This document shows, in pieces, positions 600 through 14,491 of a stretch of DNA of 32,103 bases. Both the position numbers and the translations under genes were made by a program. Origin of the DNA: an uncultured beta proteobacterium (lineage in GTDB: Bacteria; Pseudomonadota; Gammaproteobacteria; Burkholderiales; Burkholderiaceae_C); the NCBI GenBank assembly GCA_903914615.1, contig CAIWPS010000530.1, positions 1 to 32,103 on the forward strand. The letters run 5' to 3'. Position 1 is the first letter of the stretch; each line of letters starts with the position of its first letter. Under the pieces are notes generated by a model that was not told the DNA's origin, ran no database searches, and saw only the letters and a list, made by a program, of their open reading frames with translations.

Positions 600-2160
600 G
601 CTGCGCTGCCTGGTCCTCGTGTTGGGCGACCAGCTCGACCTGGATGCGGCGGCCTTCGACGGCTTCGATGCGGACGTCGACGCCGTGTGGATGGCCGAGG
701 TGGCCGGGGAGTCGACCCATGTCTGGTCGAGCAAGCCGCGCTCCGCGATGTTTCTGGCGGCGATGCGCCACTTCGCGCAGGCGCTGCAAGCCGAAGGCCG
801 CCCGCTGCACTACACCCGGCTGGACGCGCCCGGCAATGCGGGCTCGTTGGCTGCGCAGCTGCAGGCCGACATCCTGCGCCTGAAGCCGGCCCGCCTGGTG
901 ATGGCCGCGCCGGGCGACTGGCGGGTGCTGCAGGCGATCAAGGCCGCGGCCGCATCGCACGGCCTGCCGCTGGACATCCGCGAAGACCGCCACTTCTTCG
1001 TCACGGTCCGCGAGTTTGCGGCGCATGCCCGAAGCCGCAAGTCGCTGCGCATGGAGTATTTTTACCGCGAGCAGCGCAGGCGGCACGGCGTCCTGATGCA
1101 GGGCGATGAGCCCGTCGGCGGCCAGTGGAACTTCGACGCTGCCAACCGCGAGGCCTTCGGTGTTGCAGGGCCAGGTGCTGTGCCACCGCGCGCGGTCTTC
1201 CGGCCCGATGCGTTGACCCGCGAGGTCATGGCCCTGGTCAACACGCGCTTCGCCGGGCACCCCGGCCGCCTTGACAGCTTTGCCTGGCCGGTGACGCGCG
1301 CGCGGGCGCTGCAGTCCTTGCAAGCCTTCATCCGGGATCGCCTGCCGCTCTTCGGCCGCTACCAGGACGCGATGTGGCCCGGCGACCCGTGGCTGTACCA
1401 CGCGCACCTGTCGGCCGCGCTCAACCTGAAGCTGCTGAATCCGCGCGAGGTGGTGGCAGCGGCCGAAGCGGCGCACCGCGACGGGCACGCGCCGCTGGCC
1501 AGCGTCGAGGGTTTCATCCGGCAGATCCTGGGCTGGCGCGAGTACGTGCGCGGCGTCTACTGGACCCAGATGCCCGGGTACCTGCAGCGCAACGCCCTCG
1601 ATGCGCAGCAGGACCTGCCGGCCTGGTTCTGGACCGGTGCCACCGACATGGCCTGCCTGCGCGACGCCTTGGCGCAGACGCTCGAGCACGGCTATGCCAA
1701 CCACATCCAGCGGCTGATGGTCACGGGTCTGTACACGCTGATGCTCGGAGTGCAGCCCCAGCAGGTCCACGCCTGGTACCTGGCGGTGTACGTCGACGCG
1801 GTGGAGTGGGTGGAACTGCCCAACACCCTGGGCATGAGCCAGTACGCCGACGGCGGCGTGATGGGCAGCAAGCCCTACATCGCCACCGGCAAGTACATCC
1901 AGCGCATGAGCCCGCACTGCAAGGCTTGCCGCTACGACCCCGCACAGCGCAGCGGCGACAGCGCGTGTCCGTTCACGACGCTGTACTGGGACTTCCTGAT
2001 GCGCCATCAAGCGGCGCTGGCAAAGAACCCGCGCATGGCGCTGCAGGTGAAGAACGTGGCGCGCCTGACCGATGGGCAGAAGCAGGCGGTCGGCGAACGC
2101 GCGGCGGCCATCCGCCGCGGCGAGGTCGGGGCCGAAGCCGGGCTCGCGCGCCATGCATGA
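592..2160 (+). CDS. phrB: Iron-sulfur (6-4) photolyase, PhrB/FeS-BCP class
   Basis: A 522-aa photolyase-related protein starting at GTG (AELRCLVLVLGDQL), with an AAGG ribosome-binding site 6 nt upstream. It has the N-terminal alpha/beta domain and C-terminal helical FAD domain of bacterial (6-4) photolyases, which repair (6-4) photoproducts in UV-damaged DNA using light, FAD and a lumazine antenna. Cysteines at 355, 443, 446 and 459 reproduce the 88/3/13 spacing of the [4Fe-4S] ligands known in Agrobacterium PhrB. W347, W395-Y396 and H371 occupy the positions of PhrB's electron-transfer and catalytic residues, each shifted by five (recalled from memory). It overlaps DUF2256 upstream and the short photolyase downstream by 8 nt each, so it is the centre of a coupled operon. 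Function is assigned with high confidence; activity is not tested. Confidence 0.93.
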   Translation: MAELRCLVLVLGDQLDLDAAAFDGFDADVDAVWMAEVAGESTHVWSSKPRSAMFLAAMRHFAQALQAEGRPLHYTRLDAPGNAGSLAAQLQADILRLKPARLVMAAPGDWRVLQAIKAAAASHGLPLDIREDRHFFVTVREFAAHARSRKSLRMEYFYREQRRRHGVLMQGDEPVGGQWNFDAANREAFGVAGPGAVPPRAVFRPDALTREVMALVNTRFAGHPGRLDSFAWPVTRARALQSLQAFIRDRLPLFGRYQDAMWPGDPWLYHAHLSAALNLKLLNPREVVAAAEAAHRDGHAPLASVEGFIRQILGWREYVRGVYWTQMPGYLQRNALDAQQDLPAWFWTGATDMACLRDALAQTLEHGYANHIQRLMVTGLYTLMLGVQPQQVHAWYLAVYVDAVEWVELPNTLGMSQYADGGVMGSKPYIATGKYIQRMSPHCKACRYDPAQRSGDSACPFTTLYWDFLMRHQAALAKNPRMALQVKNVARLTDGQKQAVGERAAAIRRGEVGAEAGLARHA

Positions 2161-3364
2161 GACCTTCGCGCCCACGCTCGCCGCGGCGCGGGCCCGCATC
2201 GCGGCCGTCCGGCCGGCCGCCTACGCGCGCACACGCAACGCGCTCGGTGGCGCCGTCAGCCGGTTGTCGCCGTACATCACGCATGGCTTCGTCACGCTGG
2301 CCGAGGTGCTGGCCGGCGTGGCCAGCCGGCATCCGCTGGACGTGCAGCACAAGTTCGTCTACGAGCTCGGCTGGCGCGCCTATTTCCGCCATGTCTGGCA
2401 GCACCGCGGCAGCGGCATCCTGCAGTCGCTGCACGAGGGTCCGCTGCCCGAGGCGGCCTACGCCCGCGAACTGCCGGCCGACATCCGCCGGGCCTGCACG
2501 GGCGTGCCCGTGGTGGACGAGGCCGTGCGAACGCTGTACGCCACGGGCATGCTGCACAACCACGCGCGCATGTGGCTGGCCAGCTACTTGGTGCATGTGC
2601 GCAAGGTGCACTGGCGCGCCGGCGCCGACTGGCTGTACGGCCACCTGCTCGACGGCGACCTGGCCAGCAACCACCTCAGCTGGCAGTGGGTGGCGGGCAC
2701 GGGCAGCAGCAAACCGTACCTGTTCAACGCCGACAACGTGGCCCGTCACGCGCCCGCGCCGTGGCACAGCCCGGGAAGCGTGGTCGACCAGTCCTATGCC
2801 GCGCTGGATCGGATGGCGCGCCAGCCACCGCTGGTCTCGCACCCCGGGCCGGGCGCCGGGCAGGGCTGCGCCGCGAGCGCTGAACCACCGCTGCTGTCCT
2901 GTGCCCCGGAAGACCTGGCTTGCACGGCGCCGCAGGCCGCGAATGTGGCCGGCCGCGACGTCTGGCTCGTGCACCCCTGGAGCCTTGGCGCGCTACCTGC
3001 CGCCTGGGGCCGCGATGCGGTGGCTGTCGGTGTCTTTGTGGCCGACTTCCACCGCGCCTGGCCCTGGAGTGCGCAGCGCTGGCGCTTCGCAGGCAGCCGC
3101 ATGGCCGAACTCGCCACGGCGCGGTGGCACGGCGACGCCGCCGCCATCGGCGCGGCATTGAAGGGCGCGCGCAGCGTGCGCAGCATCGACGAGCCGCACC
3201 TCGCCCCCTGGCTGGCCACCTGGGCCGCGTGCGACGCCGCGCCGGCCCTGTTCCCGCGCGTCGACCGCCGCTGCGAGTCGTTCTCGGCATGGTGGACCTG
3301 CGCTACGCGTGGCCTTGGCTCGGCCGCAGACCTGTTGGCCGGCTGCGAGATGCCGTCTTGGTGA
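2153..3364 (+). CDS. Antenna-less photolyase-like FAD-binding protein with extra C-terminal domain
   Basis: A 403-aa protein. The start chosen is ATG 2153, overlapping the photolyase stop (ATGCATGA). The upstream in-frame ATG of the ORF track would lie deep inside the previous gene. Residues about 10-235 are the helical FAD-binding domain of the photolyase/cryptochrome family: SRLSPYITHGF, HKFVYELGWRAYF, VVDEAVRTLYATGMLHNHAR and the flavin-site block ASNHLSWQWVAGTG. The usual N-terminal antenna domain is missing. After a Pro/Ala linker, about 140 residues follow (DVWLVHPWSLGALP, VAVGVFVADFHRAWPWSAQRW) that read like a small alpha/beta domain. Short photolyase-like proteins are known in Proteobacteria. 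Whether this one repairs CPDs or ssDNA, or only signals, cannot be said. Confidence 0.82.
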   Translation: MHETFAPTLAAARARIAAVRPAAYARTRNALGGAVSRLSPYITHGFVTLAEVLAGVASRHPLDVQHKFVYELGWRAYFRHVWQHRGSGILQSLHEGPLPEAAYARELPADIRRACTGVPVVDEAVRTLYATGMLHNHARMWLASYLVHVRKVHWRAGADWLYGHLLDGDLASNHLSWQWVAGTGSSKPYLFNADNVARHAPAPWHSPGSVVDQSYAALDRMARQPPLVSHPGPGAGQGCAASAEPPLLSCAPEDLACTAPQAANVAGRDVWLVHPWSLGALPAAWGRDAVAVGVFVADFHRAWPWSAQRWRFAGSRMAELATARWHGDAAAIGAALKGARSVRSIDEPHLAPWLATWAACDAAPALFPRVDRRCESFSAWWTCATRGLGSAADLLAGCEMPSW

Positions 3365-4037: not shown

Positions 4038-6230
4038 TCAGAGGTCGACCTGCATCGACGCGCGCCAGGTGCGCGGGGCAAGTGGGAACAAGTACACATG
4101 CTGGTACTGGTAAGGCGACTCGCGCCAGGCCCGGCGGTTGGTGGCGTTGTCCAGGCCCAGTTGCCAGGTCAGTGCGGTCGTGCCGACGCGGGTCTGGTAG
4201 CGCGCACCCAGGTCCCAGCGCGTCCAGCCGGGGATGTGCAGGCTGTTGTCCGGCAGCACCTCGCGGCTGCCTTCGTAGACCAGGCCTGCCTGCAGGCGCA
4301 GCCCGGGCAGGCCGGCGACGGCATGGCTGGCACCCAGCTTGAGGGTCTGGTCGGGCACGTTGGTGGGGCGGCGGCCGTTCAGCGCTGCGTCGCTGTTGCC
4401 ACCCAGCGTGGCCCGCAGCACCATCGCGCTGCCCTGCAATGTCAGCGAGCCAGCCGTCCAGCGCAGCTGTGCTTCCAGGCCGCGGTTGTGCAGGGTACCG
4501 TCGGGCCGCGTCGTGATGCACGCGGCAGGGTTCACGTCGCAACCGGCGCTGACGTCGTCGAACTGCGGCTGGCGGATGTCGAAGCCGGTCAGGCCCCAGG
4601 ACAGGGTCGCTGTACTTTTCTTCATGCCCAGCTCGATCTGCCGGCTCTTCAGCGCGGGCAGGGGCTGGCCAGGGTTGGTGTAGCCCGGCCGGTTGGGCGC
4701 GACTGCAGATTCCACGCCCTGGCCCCAGCTGGCGTAGACCAGCGCCTCGGGGCTCGGCGCCCAGGTGCCTGCCAGCCACGGCGTCGTGAAGGACTGCGGA
4801 TAGTCGGTGGCCTGGCTGCCGTCGGTCTGCACGCTGGCGCGGTGCAGCTGCGTGTGGCGCAGGCCCAGCCACATTCCCAGGGCCTCGCTCAGCTGCAGGC
4901 GGTCCCGCGCATAGAGCTCGGTCGATCGCTCGGTGCGGTTCGTGTTGGCGATGGTGCCCAGGTCGGCGGGCAGGCTCGGCACCAGGGTCAGGCCGTCGAC
5001 CGTGCCGCTGCCGACGATGACGCTGTCGTCGGCCTGCGGCTGCGTGCGCAGCGTGAAGCGCGTGGCCAGCGCTCCGGCGGTGAGCTCGTGCACCCAGGCA
5101 CCCGTGGCCAGGCGGCCCTGCACGTGAGCGTCCAGCGCGGTCGACTGGCGGCGCTCGCCGTCGCTGCGGAAGTCGTAGAAGTCGAAGCTGCCGTCGGAAC
5201 AGTAGCGGTCGTAGTTGCCTTCCTTCGAGCAGCCGTAGGCATAGGCCAGCCGGTCATCGCTGTGCAGCTTCTGCACGGCGGCATGCGCCACCAGCTGCCA
5301 ATCGCCCGCCAGCTGCTGGTGCAGCCGCAGCGAGCCAGTGTTGCCTTCCAGCACCACCGGCAGCGACCAGGGCTGGTTGTTCAGGTTGATGCGAGGGTCG
5401 ACGTTCGACGCACTGGGCAGCACCGGGCCCAGCAGGCTGAAGCCGGGCACGCTGCGCTGCGACTGGCGGCTGCTCTCGACTTCGGCCTCGATCAGGGTGC
5501 CCCCGATCGGGCGCCAGTCGCCGGCCAGCGCGACGAGGCTGCGCCGGCCGCGGTCGTCACGCACCTGCGGGTCCAGCGCTTCGGCCACCACGTTCAGCCT
5601 CACGCCGAAGGCGCCGTCGGTGCCGAGGCGCTGGCCCAGGTCGGCCCACGCGCTGGCCGTGCCGTCCTGGCGCCAGCCGATGCCGGCTGAACGCTGGTTG
5701 CCTTCGGGCCGCTTGACGACCAGGTTCACCAGGCCGCCCGGCGCGCTGGTGCCGGCCTGGATGCCGCTGGTGCCCTTGAGCACCTCGACGCGCGCCTTGT
5801 TGTCCAGCGGCAGGCTGGTCTCGCCGTTGATGGGCAGGCCGTCGCGCAGGAAGTTGTAGCGGTTGTCGATGGCCATGCCGCGCACGGCGAAGGTGGTCCA
5901 GTAACCATCGGCGTTGTAGGCGTCGCTGATCGATGCGTCGTAGCGCGTCAGCGCGGCCAGGCCGGTGCCGCCGCCATCGCGAAGCTGCTCCTGGGCCGTG
6001 ACGCTGGCCTGCAGCGGGCTGCGCGACAGCGGCACGTCGCCGAAGCCGCCGACGGCCGCCGCAGCGGTCGCCGTGCGGCCGGTGATGACGACGCTGGTGG
6101 GGGCGGCAGCGTCGGTGGCGGCGGTCTGTGCCAGGGCCGCCAGCGGCGGGGCGGCCGCCGTTGCCAGGCACAGGGCCAGTCGCCCGAGCCGAAGCGCGTT
6201 GAGCGCAAGTGGGTGGTACTGGGATGCCAT
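4038..6230 (-). CDS. TonB-dependent outer-membrane receptor under TPP riboswitch control
   Basis: A 730-aa receptor. Residues 1-35 form a signal peptide (LALCLATAAAPPLAALAQ). About 45-175 is the plug domain, with TRYDASISDAYNADGYWTTF, VRGMAIDNRYNFLRDG, ARVEVLKGTSGIQAG and PGGLVNLVVKRP. The rest is a 22-strand-type barrel. The plug and barrel resemble the siderophore-receptor subfamily, and an automatic pipeline would name it that. However, the leader carries a TPP riboswitch, so uptake of thiamine, a thiamine precursor or a thiamine phosphate is the better guess. There is no thi gene or inner-membrane partner next to it. The last residue is Leu (SMQVDL), not the usual aromatic of barrel proteins. 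An energising TonB-ExbBD complex must lie elsewhere. Confidence 0.9.
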   Translation of the reverse strand: MASQYHPLALNALRLGRLALCLATAAAPPLAALAQTAATDAAAPTSVVITGRTATAAAAVGGFGDVPLSRSPLQASVTAQEQLRDGGGTGLAALTRYDASISDAYNADGYWTTFAVRGMAIDNRYNFLRDGLPINGETSLPLDNKARVEVLKGTSGIQAGTSAPGGLVNLVVKRPEGNQRSAGIGWRQDGTASAWADLGQRLGTDGAFGVRLNVVAEALDPQVRDDRGRRSLVALAGDWRPIGGTLIEAEVESSRQSQRSVPGFSLLGPVLPSASNVDPRINLNNQPWSLPVVLEGNTGSLRLHQQLAGDWQLVAHAAVQKLHSDDRLAYAYGCSKEGNYDRYCSDGSFDFYDFRSDGERRQSTALDAHVQGRLATGAWVHELTAGALATRFTLRTQPQADDSVIVGSGTVDGLTLVPSLPADLGTIANTNRTERSTELYARDRLQLSEALGMWLGLRHTQLHRASVQTDGSQATDYPQSFTTPWLAGTWAPSPEALVYASWGQGVESAVAPNRPGYTNPGQPLPALKSRQIELGMKKSTATLSWGLTGFDIRQPQFDDVSAGCDVNPAACITTRPDGTLHNRGLEAQLRWTAGSLTLQGSAMVLRATLGGNSDAALNGRRPTNVPDQTLKLGASHAVAGLPGLRLQAGLVYEGSREVLPDNSLHIPGWTRWDLGARYQTRVGTTALTWQLGLDNATNRRAWRESPYQYQHVYLFPLAPRTWRASMQVDL

Positions 6231-6268
6231 CGTGTATTTCCGTGCGATGGCAGGGTGGCGGGCACGCC

Positions 6269-6288
6269 GTACCGCGCCAGCGCGGTAC
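6269..6288 (-). promoter_or_regulatory. Hairpin in the riboswitch expression platform
   Basis: GTACCGCGC and GCGCGGTAC are perfect 9-bp arms (2-nt gap; in practice about 8 bp with a 4-nt loop) directly 3' of the TPP aptamer and 38 bp before the receptor ATG. No run of U follows, so it is not a classical terminator. It may act through the ribosome-binding region or Rho. Confidence 0.55.
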
Positions 6289-6294
6289 TTCGGC

Positions 6295-6404
6295 CTTGCT
6301 TCCCTGCGCGAGGATTACCTCGGGCCTGTGAAATGAACACAGGCACAGTCAGGTTCAAAGGGACTTTCTCAGCCGGGCCATGACAGCCCAGCACCCCTAG
6401 CGGA
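6295..6404 (-). promoter_or_regulatory. TPP riboswitch (THI element)
   Basis: The minus-strand leader of the TonB receptor contains the conserved blocks of the thiamine pyrophosphate aptamer in order: CTAGGGGTGC, CGGCTGAGA, CCCTTTGAACCTGA, GAGGTAATCCTCGCG and CAGGGAAGC. The P3 arm is GGGC...GCCC. An additional hairpin, GCCTGTG-7 nt-CACAGGC (6324-6344), is inserted between the ACCTGA and GGTAAT blocks. GCT/AGC at the two ends can close P1. TPP binding normally switches expression off when thiamine is plentiful, so the receptor would be made under thiamine shortage. The match to the consensus is strong; the mode of control (translation, Rho) is inference. Confidence 0.93.
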
Positions 6405-6405
6405 C

Positions 6406-6422
6406 GCTCCACGGTGTGGAGC
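6406..6422 (-). promoter_or_regulatory. Hairpin immediately 5' of the TPP aptamer
   Basis: GCTCCAC-3 nt-GTGGAGC is a perfect 7-bp stem abutting the aptamer. A promoter-like CACAAT (-10) lies just upstream on the minus strand at 6431-6436, so the hairpin would be at the very 5' end of the transcript. A role as a 5' stabiliser is a guess. Confidence 0.4.
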
Positions 6423-6430
6423 GAACGGCC

Positions 6431-6436
6431 ATTGTG
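6431..6436 (-). promoter_or_regulatory. Possible -10 of the TonB receptor/riboswitch transcript
   Basis: CACAAT on the minus strand, 26 bp before the aptamer's first conserved block, would place the transcript start just ahead of the 5' hairpin. No convincing -35 is seen, so this is tentative. Confidence 0.3.
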
Positions 6437-8483: not shown

Positions 8484-8489
8484 ATTTTA
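8484..8489 (-). promoter_or_regulatory. Possible -10 of the fdxA promoter
   Basis: TAAAAT on the minus strand (CGTAAAATCG) overlaps the cobA stop codon, 63 bp before the fdxA ATG. A matching -35 is weak, so confidence is modest. Confidence 0.4.
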
Positions 8490-9281
8490 CGTTGCGCAGG
8501 CGGGGGCCCGGGCTTGCGCGGGCTCAAGCCCAGGGGTCTTTGCCGGCGCGGCGAGGGCTTGTGCCCCGGCGCCAACGGTCACCACCGTGGGACGGCCTGC
8601 ATGCAGCACCGCGGCCGCACCCAGGTCGGCCAGCCGGTGGTCGCTGGCCAGGCGGTCGGGCCAGCCGGCGCGCGAGACCACGCACACCGCTGCGTCGGCA
8701 GGCCAGCCGGACTGGCGCAACTTGCGGCCCAAGGCGCCGAGCTGGCGGCCGGCCATGTAGAAGACTTCGGTGTCGGCGTGCCGGCCGGCCTGCAGTTGGC
8801 CCTGCTGGGTCATCGCGGTGGCCAGGCTGACGCTGCGGCCGCTGCCGCGGCGGGTGAGCGGGCGCTGCGTGTCGGCGGCCGCGGCGATGGCCGCGGTGAC
8901 GCCGGGCACCACCTCGCATTCGATGCCGGCGGCAGCCAGCGCCTGCAGCTCTTCTTCCAGGCGGCCGAAGATGCTGGGGTCGCCGCCCTTCAGCCGCACC
9001 ACGACGCGATGCTGGCGCGCGCAGCGCACCAGCAAGGCATCGATGGTGGCCTGGTCGGTGCTGGCGCGAGCCGGTCGCCCATCGGGCCCCGGCGAAGCTG
9101 AGAAACCGCGCTTGCCGACGTCGAGCCAGCGCGCCTGCGGCGCGAGCTCGCGCAGCGCGGGGTCGGTGAGGGCGTCGAACAGCACCACCTCGGCCTGCCC
9201 CAGCCAGTGCGCCCCGCGCAGGGTGATGAGGTCGGCGGCCCCCGGGCCGGCGCCGACGAAGACGACACGACCCGGCTTCAT
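8487..9281 (-). CDS. cobA: Uroporphyrinogen-III C-methyltransferase (SUMT)
   Basis: A 264-aa methyltransferase. The N-terminal VVFVGAGPGAADLITLRG loop, VVRLKGGDPSIFGR near residue 95, and VVPGVTAAIAAAA are the SAM-binding and signature motifs of SUMT. It adds two methyl groups to uroporphyrinogen III to give precorrin-2, the precursor of siroheme (and of B12). It is the single-domain form, without the CysG dehydrogenase/ferrochelatase half, which must be supplied elsewhere. It overlaps cysN by 4 nt (ATGA), so its task here is siroheme supply for the CysI sulfite reductase of the same operon. The C-terminal Ala/Pro-rich tail of about 20 residues is not conserved. Confidence 0.95.
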   Translation of the reverse strand: MKPGRVVFVGAGPGAADLITLRGAHWLGQAEVVLFDALTDPALRELAPQARWLDVGKRGFSASPGPDGRPARASTDQATIDALLVRCARQHRVVVRLKGGDPSIFGRLEEELQALAAAGIECEVVPGVTAAIAAAADTQRPLTRRGSGRSVSLATAMTQQGQLQAGRHADTEVFYMAGRQLGALGRKLRQSGWPADAAVCVVSRAGWPDRLASDHRLADLGAAAVLHAGRPTVVTVGAGAQALAAPAKTPGLEPAQARAPACAT

Positions 9282-10582
9282 GCCGCGTCGGCCACTGCTT
9301 TCACCAGCAGCGCGCCGCTGGTGCGGTGGCTGGCCGGGTCGACGACGATGAGCGCGCCGCCGACGCGGTTGCGGGTGTAGGGCGCCAGCGGCAGCGGCTG
9401 CTGCAGCTCGAACACGACCTCGCCGATGTCGTTGACGGCCAGGGTCTGGGCGGCGGCAGGCTGCAGGGTGTGGATGTCCAGCCGGTGCGTGATCGCCGCC
9501 AGCCGTGCCTGCACCCAGCGGTTGCCGTGGCGCACCCAGTACTTGCGGCCCGGCGTGGCGGGCTCGGTGTCCAGCCAGGCCAGCGTGGCGCTGAAGCGGC
9601 GCGCCGGCGCCAGCGTGCCGGGCGCGGACAGCCAGTCGCCGCGCGAGACGTCAAGCTGGCGGTCCAGCACCACGCCGGCCGACTGCCCCGCCGTGGCCGC
9701 CGCGATGGCGCTGCCGGCGCGCCGCAGCGCCGTCACCCTGGCGCGCTCGCCGCTGGGGAAGACCTGCAGCGCATCGCCCACCCGCACCTGCCCCTGCGCG
9801 ATGCGCCCCCACAGCACGCGCGGCTGCTCGCCCACGCCGGGGCCGGCGGAAGTCTCGCGGGCCACGTACTGCACGGGCAGGCTGAAGGGGGCGTCGGTTC
9901 GTTCCTGCGCCGTCGGCAGGCCTTCGAGGATCTGCAGCAGCGTCGGCCCGTGGTACCAGGCCACGTCCATCGGCGTCGTCACGTTGTCGCCGCGCAGCGC
10001 CGACACCGGCACGATGCCAGCCGGCACGACGCCCGCTTCGGCCGCAAACGCCGACAGCGCCGAGGCGACGGCGCCGAAGGCCGGCCCGGGGTCGGCGACG
10101 GCGTCGAGCTTGTTGACGGCGAAGACGATGCTGGGCACGCGCAGCAGCTGCGCCAGCAGGGTGTGCCGGCGCGTCTGCGGCAGCAGTTGCAGCGGCCGTG
10201 CCGCCAGGTCGAGCTTGGTGATGTCCACCAGCACCACCGCGGCGTCGCTGCCCGCAGCCGCGGTGACCATGTTGCGCGTGTACTGCTCGTGGCCGGGCGC
10301 GTCGGCGATGATGAACTTGCGCTGCGGCGTCGCGAAGTAGCGGTAGGCGACGTCGATGGTGATGCCCTGCTCGCGCTCGGCCTCCAGGCCGTCGGTGAGC
10401 AGGCTGAGGTCGATGGGTGCGCCCGCGGCGCGCACATGCAGGTGGTCGAGCTGGTCGGCCAGGATGGCGCGGCTGTCGAACAGCAGGCGGCCGATGAGCG
10501 TGCTCTTGCCGTCGTCGACGCTGCCGGCGGTCAGGAAGCGCAGCGCCTTGTGCGGGAACTGGGGCTGGGGCAGGGCAGACAT
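9278..10582 (-). CDS. cysN: Sulfate adenylyltransferase subunit 1 (GTPase subunit)
   Basis: A 434-aa protein starting MSALPQPQFPHKALRFLTAG. The GTPase motifs are clear: GSVDDGKSTLIGRLL (P-loop, about residue 21), DAPGHEQYTRNMVTAA (G3) and NKLD (G4). An EF-Tu-like beta-barrel tail follows. With CysD it makes adenosine phosphosulfate (APS) from sulfate and ATP, driven by GTP hydrolysis. No APS kinase (CysC) domain is fused to the C-terminus. It overlaps cysD by 1 nt (TGATG) upstream and cobA by 4 nt downstream. Lack of CysC fits the APS-reductase type of CysH in the operon. Confidence 0.96.
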   Translation of the reverse strand: MSALPQPQFPHKALRFLTAGSVDDGKSTLIGRLLFDSRAILADQLDHLHVRAAGAPIDLSLLTDGLEAEREQGITIDVAYRYFATPQRKFIIADAPGHEQYTRNMVTAAAGSDAAVVLVDITKLDLAARPLQLLPQTRRHTLLAQLLRVPSIVFAVNKLDAVADPGPAFGAVASALSAFAAEAGVVPAGIVPVSALRGDNVTTPMDVAWYHGPTLLQILEGLPTAQERTDAPFSLPVQYVARETSAGPGVGEQPRVLWGRIAQGQVRVGDALQVFPSGERARVTALRRAGSAIAAATAGQSAGVVLDRQLDVSRGDWLSAPGTLAPARRFSATLAWLDTEPATPGRKYWVRHGNRWVQARLAAITHRLDIHTLQPAAAQTLAVNDIGEVVFELQQPLPLAPYTRNRVGGALIVVDPASHRTSGALLVKAVADAA

Positions 10583-11541
10583 CAGAAATAGCCTTCCTTC
10601 TTGCGCCGTTCCATCGACGCGTCGGACGTGCGGTCGTCCATGCGCGTGGCGCCGCGCTCGCTGACGGTGACGGTCAGCGTCTCGGCGACGATCTCGACGG
10701 CGCTGGCGGCGTCGCTTTCCACCGGGCAGGTGCAGGTCATGTCACCGACGGTGCGAAAGCGCACCGGCAGTGTTTCCACGGTCTCGCCGGGCTGCACCGG
10801 CGTCACCGGCGTCACCGGCACCAGCAGGCCGCGGCGGCGCACGACCTCGCGCTCGTGGCTGTAGTACAGGCCCGGCAGCGGGATGCGCTCGCGCGCCAGG
10901 TAGAGCCAGACGTCGAGCTCGGTCCAGTTGCTGATGGGAAAGGCGCGGAAATGCTCGCCCGGCTTGATGCGGGTGTTGAACAGCGTCCACAGCTCGGGCC
11001 GCTGTTCCTTGGGCTGCCACTGGCCGAAGCTGTCGCGGTGGCTGAAGATGCGTTCCTTGGCGCGCGCCTTCTCCTCGTCGCGGCGGGCGCCGCCGATGAG
11101 GCAGTCGTAGCGGTGTTCCTCGATGGCCTCGAGCAGGGCCACGGTCTGGTGGCCGTTGCGCGATTCCAGCGGGTCGGCCAGGCGCACCGTGCCGCGGCGG
11201 ATGCTGTCCTCGACGCTGCCCACCACCAGCCGCTCGCCCATCTCGGCGACGCGGCGGTCGCGGAACTCGATCACCTCGGGGAAGTTGTGGCCGGTGTCCA
11301 CGTGCAGCAGCGGGAAGGGCAGCCGCCCCTGGAAGTCGCTGCCGACGGCATGCTGCTTGAAGGCCTTCTCGGCCAGGCGCAGCACCACGCAGGAATCCTT
11401 GCCGCCGCTGAACAGCAGCGCCGGCCGCTCGAAGCTGGCCGCCACCTCGCGCAGGATGAAGATCGCCTCCTCCTCCAGCCCGTCGAGGTGCTGGTGGTCC
11501 AGGCCGGGCAGCAGGTGTTCCAGGCTTGCGGGGGCGTTCAT
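10582..11541 (-). CDS. cysD: Sulfate adenylyltransferase subunit 2
   Basis: A 319-aa PP-loop ATP pyrophosphatase. LLFSGGKDSCVVLRLA (about residue 42) is the PP-loop, and HVDTGHNFPEVIEFRD and GGARRDEEKARAKER are classic CysD segments. The C-terminus ends RRKKEGYF, the family's usual tail. It forms APS together with CysN. It starts at the ATG overlapping the cysH stop (ATGA). The coding DNA has three 9-bp repeats (10795-10821) giving a VTPVTPVTPV stretch in a surface loop, an oddity without known effect. Confidence 0.96.
   Translation of the reverse strand: MNAPASLEHLLPGLDHQHLDGLEEEAIFILREVAASFERPALLFSGGKDSCVVLRLAEKAFKQHAVGSDFQGRLPFPLLHVDTGHNFPEVIEFRDRRVAEMGERLVVGSVEDSIRRGTVRLADPLESRNGHQTVALLEAIEEHRYDCLIGGARRDEEKARAKERIFSHRDSFGQWQPKEQRPELWTLFNTRIKPGEHFRAFPISNWTELDVWLYLARERIPLPGLYYSHEREVVRRRGLLVPVTPVTPVQPGETVETLPVRFRTVGDMTCTCPVESDAASAVEIVAETLTVTVSERGATRMDDRTSDASMERRKKEGYF
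10795..10821 (-). repeat. cysD: Three tandem 9-bp units inside cysD
   Basis: On the plus strand CACCGGCGT is repeated twice exactly and a third time as CACCGGCAC. In cysD this encodes repeated Thr-Pro-Val. The repeat keeps frame, so slippage would change length by three residues. Confidence 0.8.
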
Positions 11542-12278
11542 GCCGTCACTTCCTTGGTTTCAGGCCGGCCGACATGCAGGCCGCATTCCTTGGCGTCCTC
11601 GTTCTCCCACCACCAGCGGCCGGCGCGGAAGTCCTCACCCAGCGCCACGGCGCGGGTGCAGGGCTCGCAGCCGATGCTGGGGTAGAACTCGTCGTGCAGC
11701 GGGTTGGTCGGCACCTCGTGCAGGGCGATGTAATGCCAGACGTCGTTCCAGCTCCAGTCGGCCAGCGGGCTGAACTTGGCGCGGCCGTTGTCGTCGACGG
11801 CGCTGAAAGGTACTTCGGCTCGCGCGCCCGACTGTTCGCGCCGAAGCCCGGTGATCCAGGCCGTGCGGCCCTGCAGCGCGCGGCCGAGTGGCTCGACCTT
11901 GCGCAGCGCGCAGCAGGCCTTGCGCAGCTCGATGCTGCGGCGCATCGGCAGCTCGCCGTGGCGGGCGACGAAGTGCACCACCTGCTCGGGCACCGGCTGC
12001 CATGGCTCGATGGCCAGGCCGTAGTGAGCCTCGATGCGCGGGATGAGCGCCAGCGTCGGCGCCGGCAGCAGGCCGGTCTGCAGCGTGGCCAGCGCGATGG
12101 GCAGGCCATGGCGGGCGATGAGGTCGGTGAGCACCATGTCCTCGGCGCCCAGGCTGGTGGTGAAGACGACGCGGCCGCTGTGCTGCTCGGCGGCCTGCTG
12201 CAGCACCGCCAGTGCGTGCGCGACGCGTTCGTCGAAGCCCGGCGTGGCACGGGCGTAGAGCGCAATGGCACGGCTCAC
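11538..12278 (-). CDS. cysH: Adenylyl-sulfate (APS) reductase, iron-sulfur type
   Basis: A 246-aa reductase starting at GTG 12278, whose first bases overlap the stop of the DUF934 gene (GTGA). The longer ORF-track start runs through that gene. TTSLGAEDMVL is the nucleotide-binding motif. KACCALRKVEPL and IGCEPCTRAV supply the two cysteine pairs that bind [4Fe-4S], and ECGLH at the C-terminus carries the catalytic cysteine. In this family, the extra CC/CxxC pairs distinguish APS reductases from PAPS reductases. So it should reduce APS to sulfite with thioredoxin or glutathione, bypassing PAPS. Confidence 0.93.
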   Translation of the reverse strand: MSRAIALYARATPGFDERVAHALAVLQQAAEQHSGRVVFTTSLGAEDMVLTDLIARHGLPIALATLQTGLLPAPTLALIPRIEAHYGLAIEPWQPVPEQVVHFVARHGELPMRRSIELRKACCALRKVEPLGRALQGRTAWITGLRREQSGARAEVPFSAVDDNGRAKFSPLADWSWNDVWHYIALHEVPTNPLHDEFYPSIGCEPCTRAVALGEDFRAGRWWWENEDAKECGLHVGRPETKEVTA

Positions 12279-12652
12279 GGCAGCACCCCAGGTACCGCGG
12301 CGCTGCGTTCGGGCGGCACGGTCTGGTAGTGGGTGTCGAACCAGCCCAGCGCGCGTTGCGCCGTCTCGAGCTTCTGGTCGGCGCGCATCTGCACGGCGTC
12401 GAAGCCGCAGCGGCGCAGCAGCGGCAGCATGTCGGCCAGCACCTCGCCGGTGGCGTGGATTGCGCCGCCGTAGCGCAGGCGGCCGCGCAGCAGCACGGCC
12501 TGCGAATAGGCGCGGCCGTCGGTCCACTTCGGGAAGTGCAACACCACGGCGGCATGGCCGCGGATCTCGTCGGCGCGCGCCAGCACGTCGGCATCGTTGG
12601 GCAGTTGCAGCGCGTCCGCGGGCAGGCTGGCTTCGGGGGCGATGAATTGCAT
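12275..12652 (-). CDS. DUF934 protein of sulfate-assimilation operon
   Basis: A 125-aa protein starting MQFIAPEASLPADALQLPND at ATG 12652. Blocks VVLHFPKWTDGRAYSQAVLLRGRLRYGG, ATGEVLADMLPLLRRCGFDAVQMR and DQKLETAQRALGWF are characteristic of DUF934. Its function is unproven, but it is regularly found between sulfite reductase and cysH genes in Proteobacteria. It starts 10 bp after the cysI stop and overlaps cysH by 4 nt. It has no cysteine-rich motif or membrane segment. A helper role in sulfite reductase assembly or electron transfer is an inference from position only. Confidence 0.9.
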   Translation of the reverse strand: MQFIAPEASLPADALQLPNDADVLARADEIRGHAAVVLHFPKWTDGRAYSQAVLLRGRLRYGGAIHATGEVLADMLPLLRRCGFDAVQMRADQKLETAQRALGWFDTHYQTVPPERSAAVPGVLP

Positions 12653-12662
12653 GCGGTGCACC

Positions 12663-14375
12663 TCAGGCGGCCAAGGCGGTGGACCGCCGCACCGCGTCGG
12701 CGGCATGGCGGAAGGGCAGGGGGCCCAGGCGCCGCGAGGTGTCGATGAAGCGCTCGCCCAGCTGCCGTTCGCGCAGGTAGGTGCCGATGACGGCCTCGAT
12801 GACGTCGGGCACCTCGTCGGCGGCAAAGGAAGGGCCGATGACCTTGCCTGCCAGCGCCGGCCCGCTGAGGGCGCTGCCGTCGGCGCCGGCGACCGTCACC
12901 TGGTACCACTCGCTGCCGTCCTTGTCGACGCCCAGGATGCCGATGTGGCCGCTGTGGTGGTGGCCGCAGCTGTTGATGCAGCCGCTGATGTGGAGGTCGA
13001 TGTCGCCGATGTCGTGCAGCTCGTCGAGGTCGTCGAAGCGCTCGGCGATGGCGGCGGCGATGGGGATGGAACGCGCGTTGGCCAGCGCGCAGAGGTCGCC
13101 GCCGGGGCAGGCGATCATGTCGGTGAGCAGGCCGATGTTGGGCGTGGCGAAGCCGTCCTCGCGCGCCTGCAGCCACAGCGCGCGCAGCTCGCTCTCGGGC
13201 ACCCAGGGCAGCAACAGGTTCTGGTCGTGGCTGACGCGCAGTTCGCCCTGGCTGTAGCGCTCGGCCAGCGCGGCGGCAGCGTCCATCTGGTCGGCGGTGA
13301 CGTCGCCCGGCGGCAGCCCGGCGCGCTTGAGCGAGAGCGTCACCGCGCGGTAGCCGGCCAGCCGGTGCGGGTGCACGTTGCGCTGCAGCCAGCGCGTGTA
13401 GGCAGGCAGCGCGTCGCCGGCCGGGCGCGCCGCGGGTGGAGCCTCTGCAGTGACGGGGTCGACGAAGCCGGCGGCGACACGCGCCAGTTCACTTTCGGGC
13501 AGGACGGGCGTGGCCGGGTCCGCCAGCAGCGCTTCGAACTCGCGGTTCACGGCGTCGACGAAGCGCTGGCCTTCGGCCTTGACGAGGATCTTGATGCGCG
13601 CCTTGTACATGTTGTCGCGGCGGCCGTAGAGGTTGTAGACGCGCACCACGGCCTCGATGTAGACGAGGATCTGCTGCCAGGGCACGAAGTCGCGGAAGGG
13701 CGTGGCGATGACCGGCGTGCGGCCCATGCCGCCGCCCACGGCGACGCGAAAGCCGACTTCGCCCGCTGCGTTGCGGTGCAGGCGCAGGCCGATGTCGTGC
13801 CAGTCGGTGGCGGCGCGGTCCTCGCGCGCGCCGGTCACCGCGATCTTGAACTTGCGCGGCAGGAAGGCGAATTCCGGGTGCAGCGTGCTCCACTGGCGCA
13901 GCAGTTCGCAGTAGGGCCGGGGGTCGACTTCCTCGTCGGGCGCAATCCCGGCGAAAGCGTCGCTGGTGGTGTTGCGAATGCAGTTGCCGCTGGTTTGGAT
14001 GCCGTGCATGTCCACCGCGGCCAGCAGTTCCATGACGTCGGCCGAGCGCTCGAGCGGGATCCAGTTGAACTGCAGGTTCTGCCGTGTCGTGAAGTGGCCG
14101 AAGCCACCGCGCTCCGTCGCGGTGCCGGCGTCCTGCAGGTCGAACTCGCGCGCGATGCGGGCCAGCTGGCGCAGCTGGGTGCTGCTCAGCTCGCCGTAGG
14201 GCACGGCCACGCGCAGCATGGGTGCGTGGCGCTGCACGTACCAGCCGTTCTGCAGGCGCAGCGGGCGGAACTCCTCGCCGCCCAGCTCACCCGCCAGGTG
14301 GCGCTTCAACTGGTCGCGGTACTGCGCGGCGCGGGCGCGGACGAACTGGCGGTCGGATTCGTTGTAGCGGTACAT
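12663..14375 (-). CDS. cysI: Sulfite reductase hemoprotein (siroheme, 4Fe-4S)
   Basis: A 570-aa protein starting MYRYNESDRQFVRARAAQYRDQL at ATG 14375. The earlier ORF-track start adds 24 unconserved residues. The two ferredoxin-like repeats and FGHFTTRQNLQFNWIPL are clear. The siroheme-iron-sulfur ligands are ACPGGDLCALA and SGCINSCGHHHSGHIG in the second half. It reduces sulfite to sulfide by six electrons; a nitrite-reducing role is possible in the family but the operon argues for sulfite. The usual flavoprotein CysJ is missing, so electrons must come from a ferredoxin or another donor. It is the first gene of the operon, with a weakly defined promoter upstream and no visible Shine-Dalgarno. 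Confidence 0.94.
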   Translation of the reverse strand: MYRYNESDRQFVRARAAQYRDQLKRHLAGELGGEEFRPLRLQNGWYVQRHAPMLRVAVPYGELSSTQLRQLARIAREFDLQDAGTATERGGFGHFTTRQNLQFNWIPLERSADVMELLAAVDMHGIQTSGNCIRNTTSDAFAGIAPDEEVDPRPYCELLRQWSTLHPEFAFLPRKFKIAVTGAREDRAATDWHDIGLRLHRNAAGEVGFRVAVGGGMGRTPVIATPFRDFVPWQQILVYIEAVVRVYNLYGRRDNMYKARIKILVKAEGQRFVDAVNREFEALLADPATPVLPESELARVAAGFVDPVTAEAPPAARPAGDALPAYTRWLQRNVHPHRLAGYRAVTLSLKRAGLPPGDVTADQMDAAAALAERYSQGELRVSHDQNLLLPWVPESELRALWLQAREDGFATPNIGLLTDMIACPGGDLCALANARSIPIAAAIAERFDDLDELHDIGDIDLHISGCINSCGHHHSGHIGILGVDKDGSEWYQVTVAGADGSALSGPALAGKVIGPSFAADEVPDVIEAVIGTYLRERQLGERFIDTSRRLGPLPFRHAADAVRRSTALAA

Positions 14376-14491
14376 GCGATACGTGGAACTGGGGAACCGG
14401 CGGCAACGCGCGGCAGCGGGTCGGCGGCGCCGTCCCAGGCTGCGCAATGTAGGCGCACCGCCCCGGTCGAGGAACTACAAAGAAGTGCCTT

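Follow-up and report, generated by a model that had tools for sequence, protein, structure and literature searches.

The window analysed in the current study, a stretch of 32,103 nucleotides of DNA from an uncultured, Rubrivivax-like beta proteobacterium, carries on its minus strand a gene for a TonB-dependent receptor and, 54 nt upstream on the same strand, a thiamine pyrophosphate (TPP) riboswitch aptamer. The features of this locus are as follows, in 5' to 3' order of the minus strand.

6284..6408, minus strand: TPP riboswitch aptamer (RF00059, model positions 1-105) found with cmscan, core from GCT at 6401 to AGC at 6298
6401-6391, minus strand: conserved block GCTAGGGGTGC, read on the minus strand
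6367..6373, minus strand: GCTGAGA, exact conserved block
6356-6349, minus strand: conserved block GAACCTGA, read on the minus strand
6324..6344, minus strand: inserted hairpin GCCTGTG..CACAGGC of 7 bp between P4 and P5 (comparison with orthologous leaders)
6321-6310, minus strand: P5 block GAGGTAATCCTC, read on the minus strand
6309-6298, minus strand: conserved block GCGCAGGGAAGC, read on the minus strand
6302..6307, minus strand: GCAGGG, 3' strand of P4 and proposed switching strand, which pairs in the minimum-energy fold without ligand with CCCTGC (6255-6250)
6269..6288, minus strand: spacer hairpin GTACCGCG..CGCGGTAC in the interval between aptamer and expression platform (sequence and fold)
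6250..6255, minus strand: CCCTGC, proposed anti-sequestor and partner of GCAGGG (motif conservation)
6225..6252, minus strand: start-codon hairpin, TGCCATCG (6252-6245) with CGATGGCA (6232-6225) (complementarity, fold and conservation)
4038..6230, minus strand: TonB-dependent receptor of 730 aa, predicted outer-membrane importer of thiamine (or thiamine phosphate) (Pfam, NCBIfam and ortholog context)

Receptor gene and aptamer

The encoded protein is identified as a TonB-dependent receptor by its Plug (PF07715, 46.5 bits) and TonB_dep_Rec_b-barrel (PF00593, 116.6 bits) domains. Its best family score is to the siderophore subfamily TIGR01783 of NCBIfam (238.4 bits, cutoff 223.5), as anticipated in a preliminary description of this DNA, according to which the gene would be called a siderophore receptor, and the nearest solved structures, FemA, BauA and FhuA, are all siderophore receptors. 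An AlphaFold model based on 12 sequences was of low confidence (mean pLDDT 62.7), the barrel being modelled better than the plug, which was not resolved. The gene is solitary, being flanked by a tRNA downstream (anticodon GTT by inspection) and a divergent MAPEG gene upstream, in agreement with the earlier remark that no thi gene adjoins it. Elsewhere in the window, two photolyase-family genes (592-2160 and 2072-3364, plus strand), a DPRP-family gene and a FAD-binding DNA photolyase, overlap end to end, while a run of sulphate-assimilation-type genes (8487-14447, minus strand) with tetrapyrrole methylase, EF-Tu-type GTPase, PAPS reductase and sulphite/nitrite reductase domains lies upstream of the receptor region.

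A targeted cmscan of the window with RF00059 yielded a match of 38.0 bits (E 4.7e-6) covering 105/105 model positions. This score lies below the curated gathering cutoff (GA) of 54.3 bits, which is a search threshold and not a biological feature, and a general Rfam scan of the window returned nothing above the gathering score except one tRNA. Helices P1 (3 bp), P2, P3, P4 and P5 are present, and the claim that the leader has all the conserved TPP blocks was borne out, as every block is intact within a full-length match. The GCTGAGA block corresponds to the pyrimidine-binding loop of established TPP aptamer structures, and the retained residues include all those that we take to be ligand contacts, going by the E. 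coli thiM structure: GAG of CUGAGA, G of ACCUG and CG of GCGCAGG. When the 5.88 Mb draft genome of the host was scanned, the window aptamer was its single TPP match (E 1.6e-5); a chance match is ruled out by this value together with the linkage described below. The preliminary description had named a covariance-model score below threshold as grounds for refuting the aptamer, and formally the window score falls there, yet it does not refute the aptamer, as orthologous aptamers exceed the GA, among them that of the closest orthologue (G348, receptor 68% identical to that of the window) at 59.9 bits and that of G196 at 60.9 bits.

The low score of the window aptamer is explained by two departures from the model. 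The optional P3a is missing, and the stretch from ACCTG to GCGCAGGG measures 40 nt, which is 25 nt more than the 15 nt seen in 59 of the 70 orthologous leaders. Helix-forming inserts next to P5 also occur in eight other leaders (L037, L039, L041, L043, L047, L049, L089 and L131), all of which retain the aptamer core and the platform, so that P4/P5 inserts are recurrent, with lengths of 40-102 nt across the window and these eight leaders where 15 nt is usual. Real riboswitches that score low and carry insertions at unusual positions have been described by Barrick and Breaker (PMC2258182). These observations support the identification of the window leader as a TPP riboswitch, which would be expected to bind TPP.

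Expression platform

Downstream of the aptamer, the start-codon hairpin holds the ATG (6230-6228) in its 3' arm and an SD-like GGAAA (6241-6237) in its loop. The platform that buries the start codon is conserved across many species: of the 70 distinct leaders compared, 48 have the hairpin with 6 or more of its 8 pairs, and 66 have a CCTGC or CCTGT motif 3' of the aptamer. In an alignment of 22 diverse sequences 88.6% of cells were paired, against at most 45% on sliding, although this is not an unbiased frequency since the sequences were picked from motif-bearing leaders. Changes on both sides were seen at three pairs, a level reached by 4 of 500 shuffles; in L041, TGTCATCG pairs with CGATGACC (ATGACC), in L132 and L144, TGCTCGTCG pairs with CGATGAGCA (ATGAGC), and in L086, where the start codon is GTG, TGCCAC pairs with GTGGCA. 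An apparent tandem arrangement in L126 was found to be a single aptamer, its doubling being an artefact of the search pattern.

With the aptamer locked in folding, the start hairpin formed with a probability of 1.0. In the ligand-free minimum-energy fold the GCAGGG strand of the aptamer is instead paired with CCCTGC just 5' of the start hairpin. The ligand-free equilibrium fold did not open the start codon, the ATG staying paired (probability 0.98 in the window), so the proposed ON state would rest on co-transcriptional folding. No terminator was detected on the minus strand in the interval from the aptamer to the ATG.

From these elements a switch may be proposed by which TPP would repress translation of the receptor. 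When TPP is plentiful in the cytoplasm, the aptamer would enclose the ligand and keep the 3' strand GCGCAGGG in P4; TGCCATCG would then pair with CGATGGCA, burying the ATG and turning translation off. When TPP is scarce, pairing of GCAGGG with CCCTGC would compete with the start hairpin and the receptor would be translated.

Linkage of aptamer and receptor in relatives

The comparison set comprised 60 genomes of the same genus, of which 49 carry the receptor and 55 have TPP sites. Each of the 50 receptor genes in this set has a same-strand TPP aptamer in front of it, at a distance of 10-249 nt (median 100), although in one pair (G345) the aptamer is partial at a contig edge, and in 39 genomes the receptor-linked aptamer is the sole TPP site. 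The search for similar riboswitch-receptor pairs in related genomes that had been recommended at the outset therefore gave a uniform answer in the genus. Among Burkholderiales beyond the genus the conserved blocks were present in most of the orthologue leaders examined, Variovorax being the main exception, and on a tree of the Burkholderiales receptors the TPP-leader label was strongly clustered. In G301, a weak TPP-like match (29.8 bits; L204:1112-1206) that directly precedes a gene for a serine recombinase possibly arose by chance.

In two genera of prototrophs the orthologues belong to TPP-controlled thi operons. The order in Variovorax paradoxus 110B is TPP site, cytX-like permease, thiD (opposite strand), thiO, thiS, thiG, further sequence and receptor, the aptamer thus heading a thi cluster that includes the receptor, while Curvibacter HBC61 has the order TPP site, thiO, thiG, thiE, second TPP site and receptor. 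The Variovorax operon was reported in 2023 and its receptor termed a predicted thiamine active transporter (PMC10409787). That protein is orthologous to the window receptor (approximately 48-50% identity) and likewise under a TPP riboswitch, but it stands at the end of a prototroph's biosynthetic operon, whereas the window receptor is solitary, has its own riboswitch and sits in a predicted auxotroph.

Thiamine synthesis genes in the host and the genus

Searches of the host draft genome for thiC and thiG gave no match, and a thiamine pyrophosphokinase gene (TPK, PF04263) was found neither in the host nor in the 60 genomes of the genus. A 20-bit ThiE match on contig C793 of the host proved to be IMP dehydrogenase. 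A ThiD match beside an aminotransferase class-III gene (approximately 90 bits, cutoff 205) was rejected as a distant paralogue; this ThiD-like kinase domain (G000:C256:7239-7997, L196) adjoins a hemL-like gene of that class, and comparably weak matches turn up in almost all genomes of the genus, including most of those that have a true ThiD. The thiL gene, on the other hand, is present in the host (321 bits).

Most genomes of the genus, like the host, are devoid of thiC, thiG, thiE and a true thiD and possess thiL, which is kept nearly everywhere while thiE is mostly lost; among the 60, thiC was found in 7, thiG clearly in 9 and thiE clearly in 10. In the 36 genomes of good quality, 28 have the receptor without thiG/thiE, 2 have both, 5 have thiG/thiE without the receptor and 1 has neither, an inverse distribution with a Fisher p of 3e-4, in a statistic that ignores shared ancestry. 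The draft assembly of the host consists of 866 contigs, and since several thi genes share one contig in prototrophic relatives, a single missing contig could mimic their loss; the individual gene losses in the host are thus not proven singly, while 29 of the 36 good genomes of the genus agree in lacking thiG/thiE. By its gene content the host is predicted to be a thiamine auxotroph. A literature search on the thiamine requirement of Rubrivivax returned nothing usable.

Two genomes of the genus without thiG/thiE (G350 and G302) have a second TPP site, behind which lies a gene for a small thiamine-binding protein of the MTH1187/YkoF family.

L201:2962-3432, minus strand: MTH1187/YkoF-family protein with apparent export signal, behind the TPP site L201:3504-3611
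L202:2921-3376, minus strand: MTH1187/YkoF-family protein with apparent export signal, behind the TPP site L202:3449-3556

This protein may be a partner in uptake. A more speculative idea, to which we give little credence, is that it is the vitamin counterpart of a hemophore which, if exported, might pass thiamine or thiamine phosphates to the receptor or the inner membrane; in the host, the window receptor might take up thiamine phosphates directly, which would feed ThiL.

Discussion

The reading strongly favoured by the findings of this study is that the locus combines a TPP riboswitch with the gene for the receptor through which a thiamine auxotroph takes up vitamin B1 across its outer membrane. 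As the sole TPP switch found in a genome devoid of B1 synthesis genes precedes the receptor, the latter is read as a vitamin B1 importer. It would import intact thiamine, or thiamine mono- or diphosphate, in a TonB-energised manner, and ThiL would catalyse the final step in turning the imported thiamine into TPP. The presence of thiL and the absence of TPK imply a thiamine kinase or, alternatively, import of TMP. The preliminary description had proposed an importer of thiamine or a precursor. The thiamine part of that proposal is upheld by the linkage in all 50 pairs, the thi operons and the complementary distribution of genes, while the precursor part is disfavoured by the missing thiC, thiG and thiE. 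It had also held the gene to be recognisable only through its RNA, which is too restrictive given that synteny and the phyletic profile lead to the same answer.

Import of a precursor (HMP or thiazole), with TPP feeding back on precursor uptake, is unlikely. It is suggested by the TPP-controlled cluster of Variovorax, in which the receptor occurs together with the putative HMP transporter cytX, and by the control of precursor transporters by TPP riboswitches elsewhere (PMC3766115). In the host and most of its genus, however, thiE is absent and HMP and thiazole cannot be joined, for which reason intact thiamine or thiamine phosphate is the likely cargo; moreover, orthologues occur in auxotrophs and prototrophs alike, which suggests a common cargo at the level of the product.

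It is very unlikely that the protein is a true ferric-siderophore receptor, brought under thiamine control by happenstance or because its siderophore is tied to thiamine status. The TIGR01783 score and the nearest structures point that way, and the plug-barrel architecture is common to the window receptor and FemA, BauA and FhuA. The window receptor nevertheless lacks a siderophore context and any Fur-box-like site in consensus scans, in which the best hit in the leader (9/19) equalled those in shuffled sequences, although a consensus scan could overlook Fur control, and it differs from these proteins in its thiamine regulation and context. The association with TPP aptamers, which is without exception in the genus, the membership of thi operons in other genera and the distribution inverse to that of the thi genes likewise argue against a siderophore as cargo.

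That the P4/P5 insertion has made the window aptamer a decayed one that no longer switches, leaving the receptor constitutive, is most improbable, since the features in its favour (a score of 38.0 bits where most relatives reach 50-60, and a P4-P5 stretch of 40 nt in place of 15) are met by intact conserved blocks, by an insert that is a clean hairpin at a site where other leaders tolerate inserts while keeping core and platform, and by the record of low-scoring true riboswitches with unusual insertions (PMC2258182).

TonB receptors behind TPP riboswitches are already known. Genetic evidence exists for OMthi (BT2390) of Bacteroides thetaiotaomicron, a TonB-dependent receptor behind a TPP riboswitch whose deletion together with the biosynthetic operon raised the thiamine requirement (PMC5613172); this system shares the riboswitch and the outer-membrane receptor with the window but differs in phylum and in its pnuT-tnr3 association. 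Similarly, omr1, which the papers cited here trace back to Rodionov et al. 2002, has been described in auxotrophs and environmental genomes as a potential B1 outer-membrane receptor near TPP riboswitches, its specificity being called unclear (PMC10881298, PMC12442306). The window receptor resembles omr1 and OMthi as a TonB receptor under presumed TPP-riboswitch control, judged from its position, and is likened to them by this arrangement. For the Burkholderia and Ralstonia groups, a survey of TPP regulons did not find any transporters under TPP regulation (PMC3766115). Three features are new to the best of our knowledge: the solitary pair of riboswitch and receptor found genus-wide in auxotrophs, the conservation of a platform at the start codon, and the recurrent P4/P5 insertion, owing to which genuine TPP switches are missed by standard Rfam cutoffs.

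Many receptors labelled as siderophore receptors have other cargo. In the present case vitamin B1 is indicated alike by the control through RNA, the phyletic profile and the operon context, in a genus that is mostly unable to make it, and since no other TPP-controlled gene was found in most of these genomes, the receptor would offer a clean test of the cargo of such receptors.
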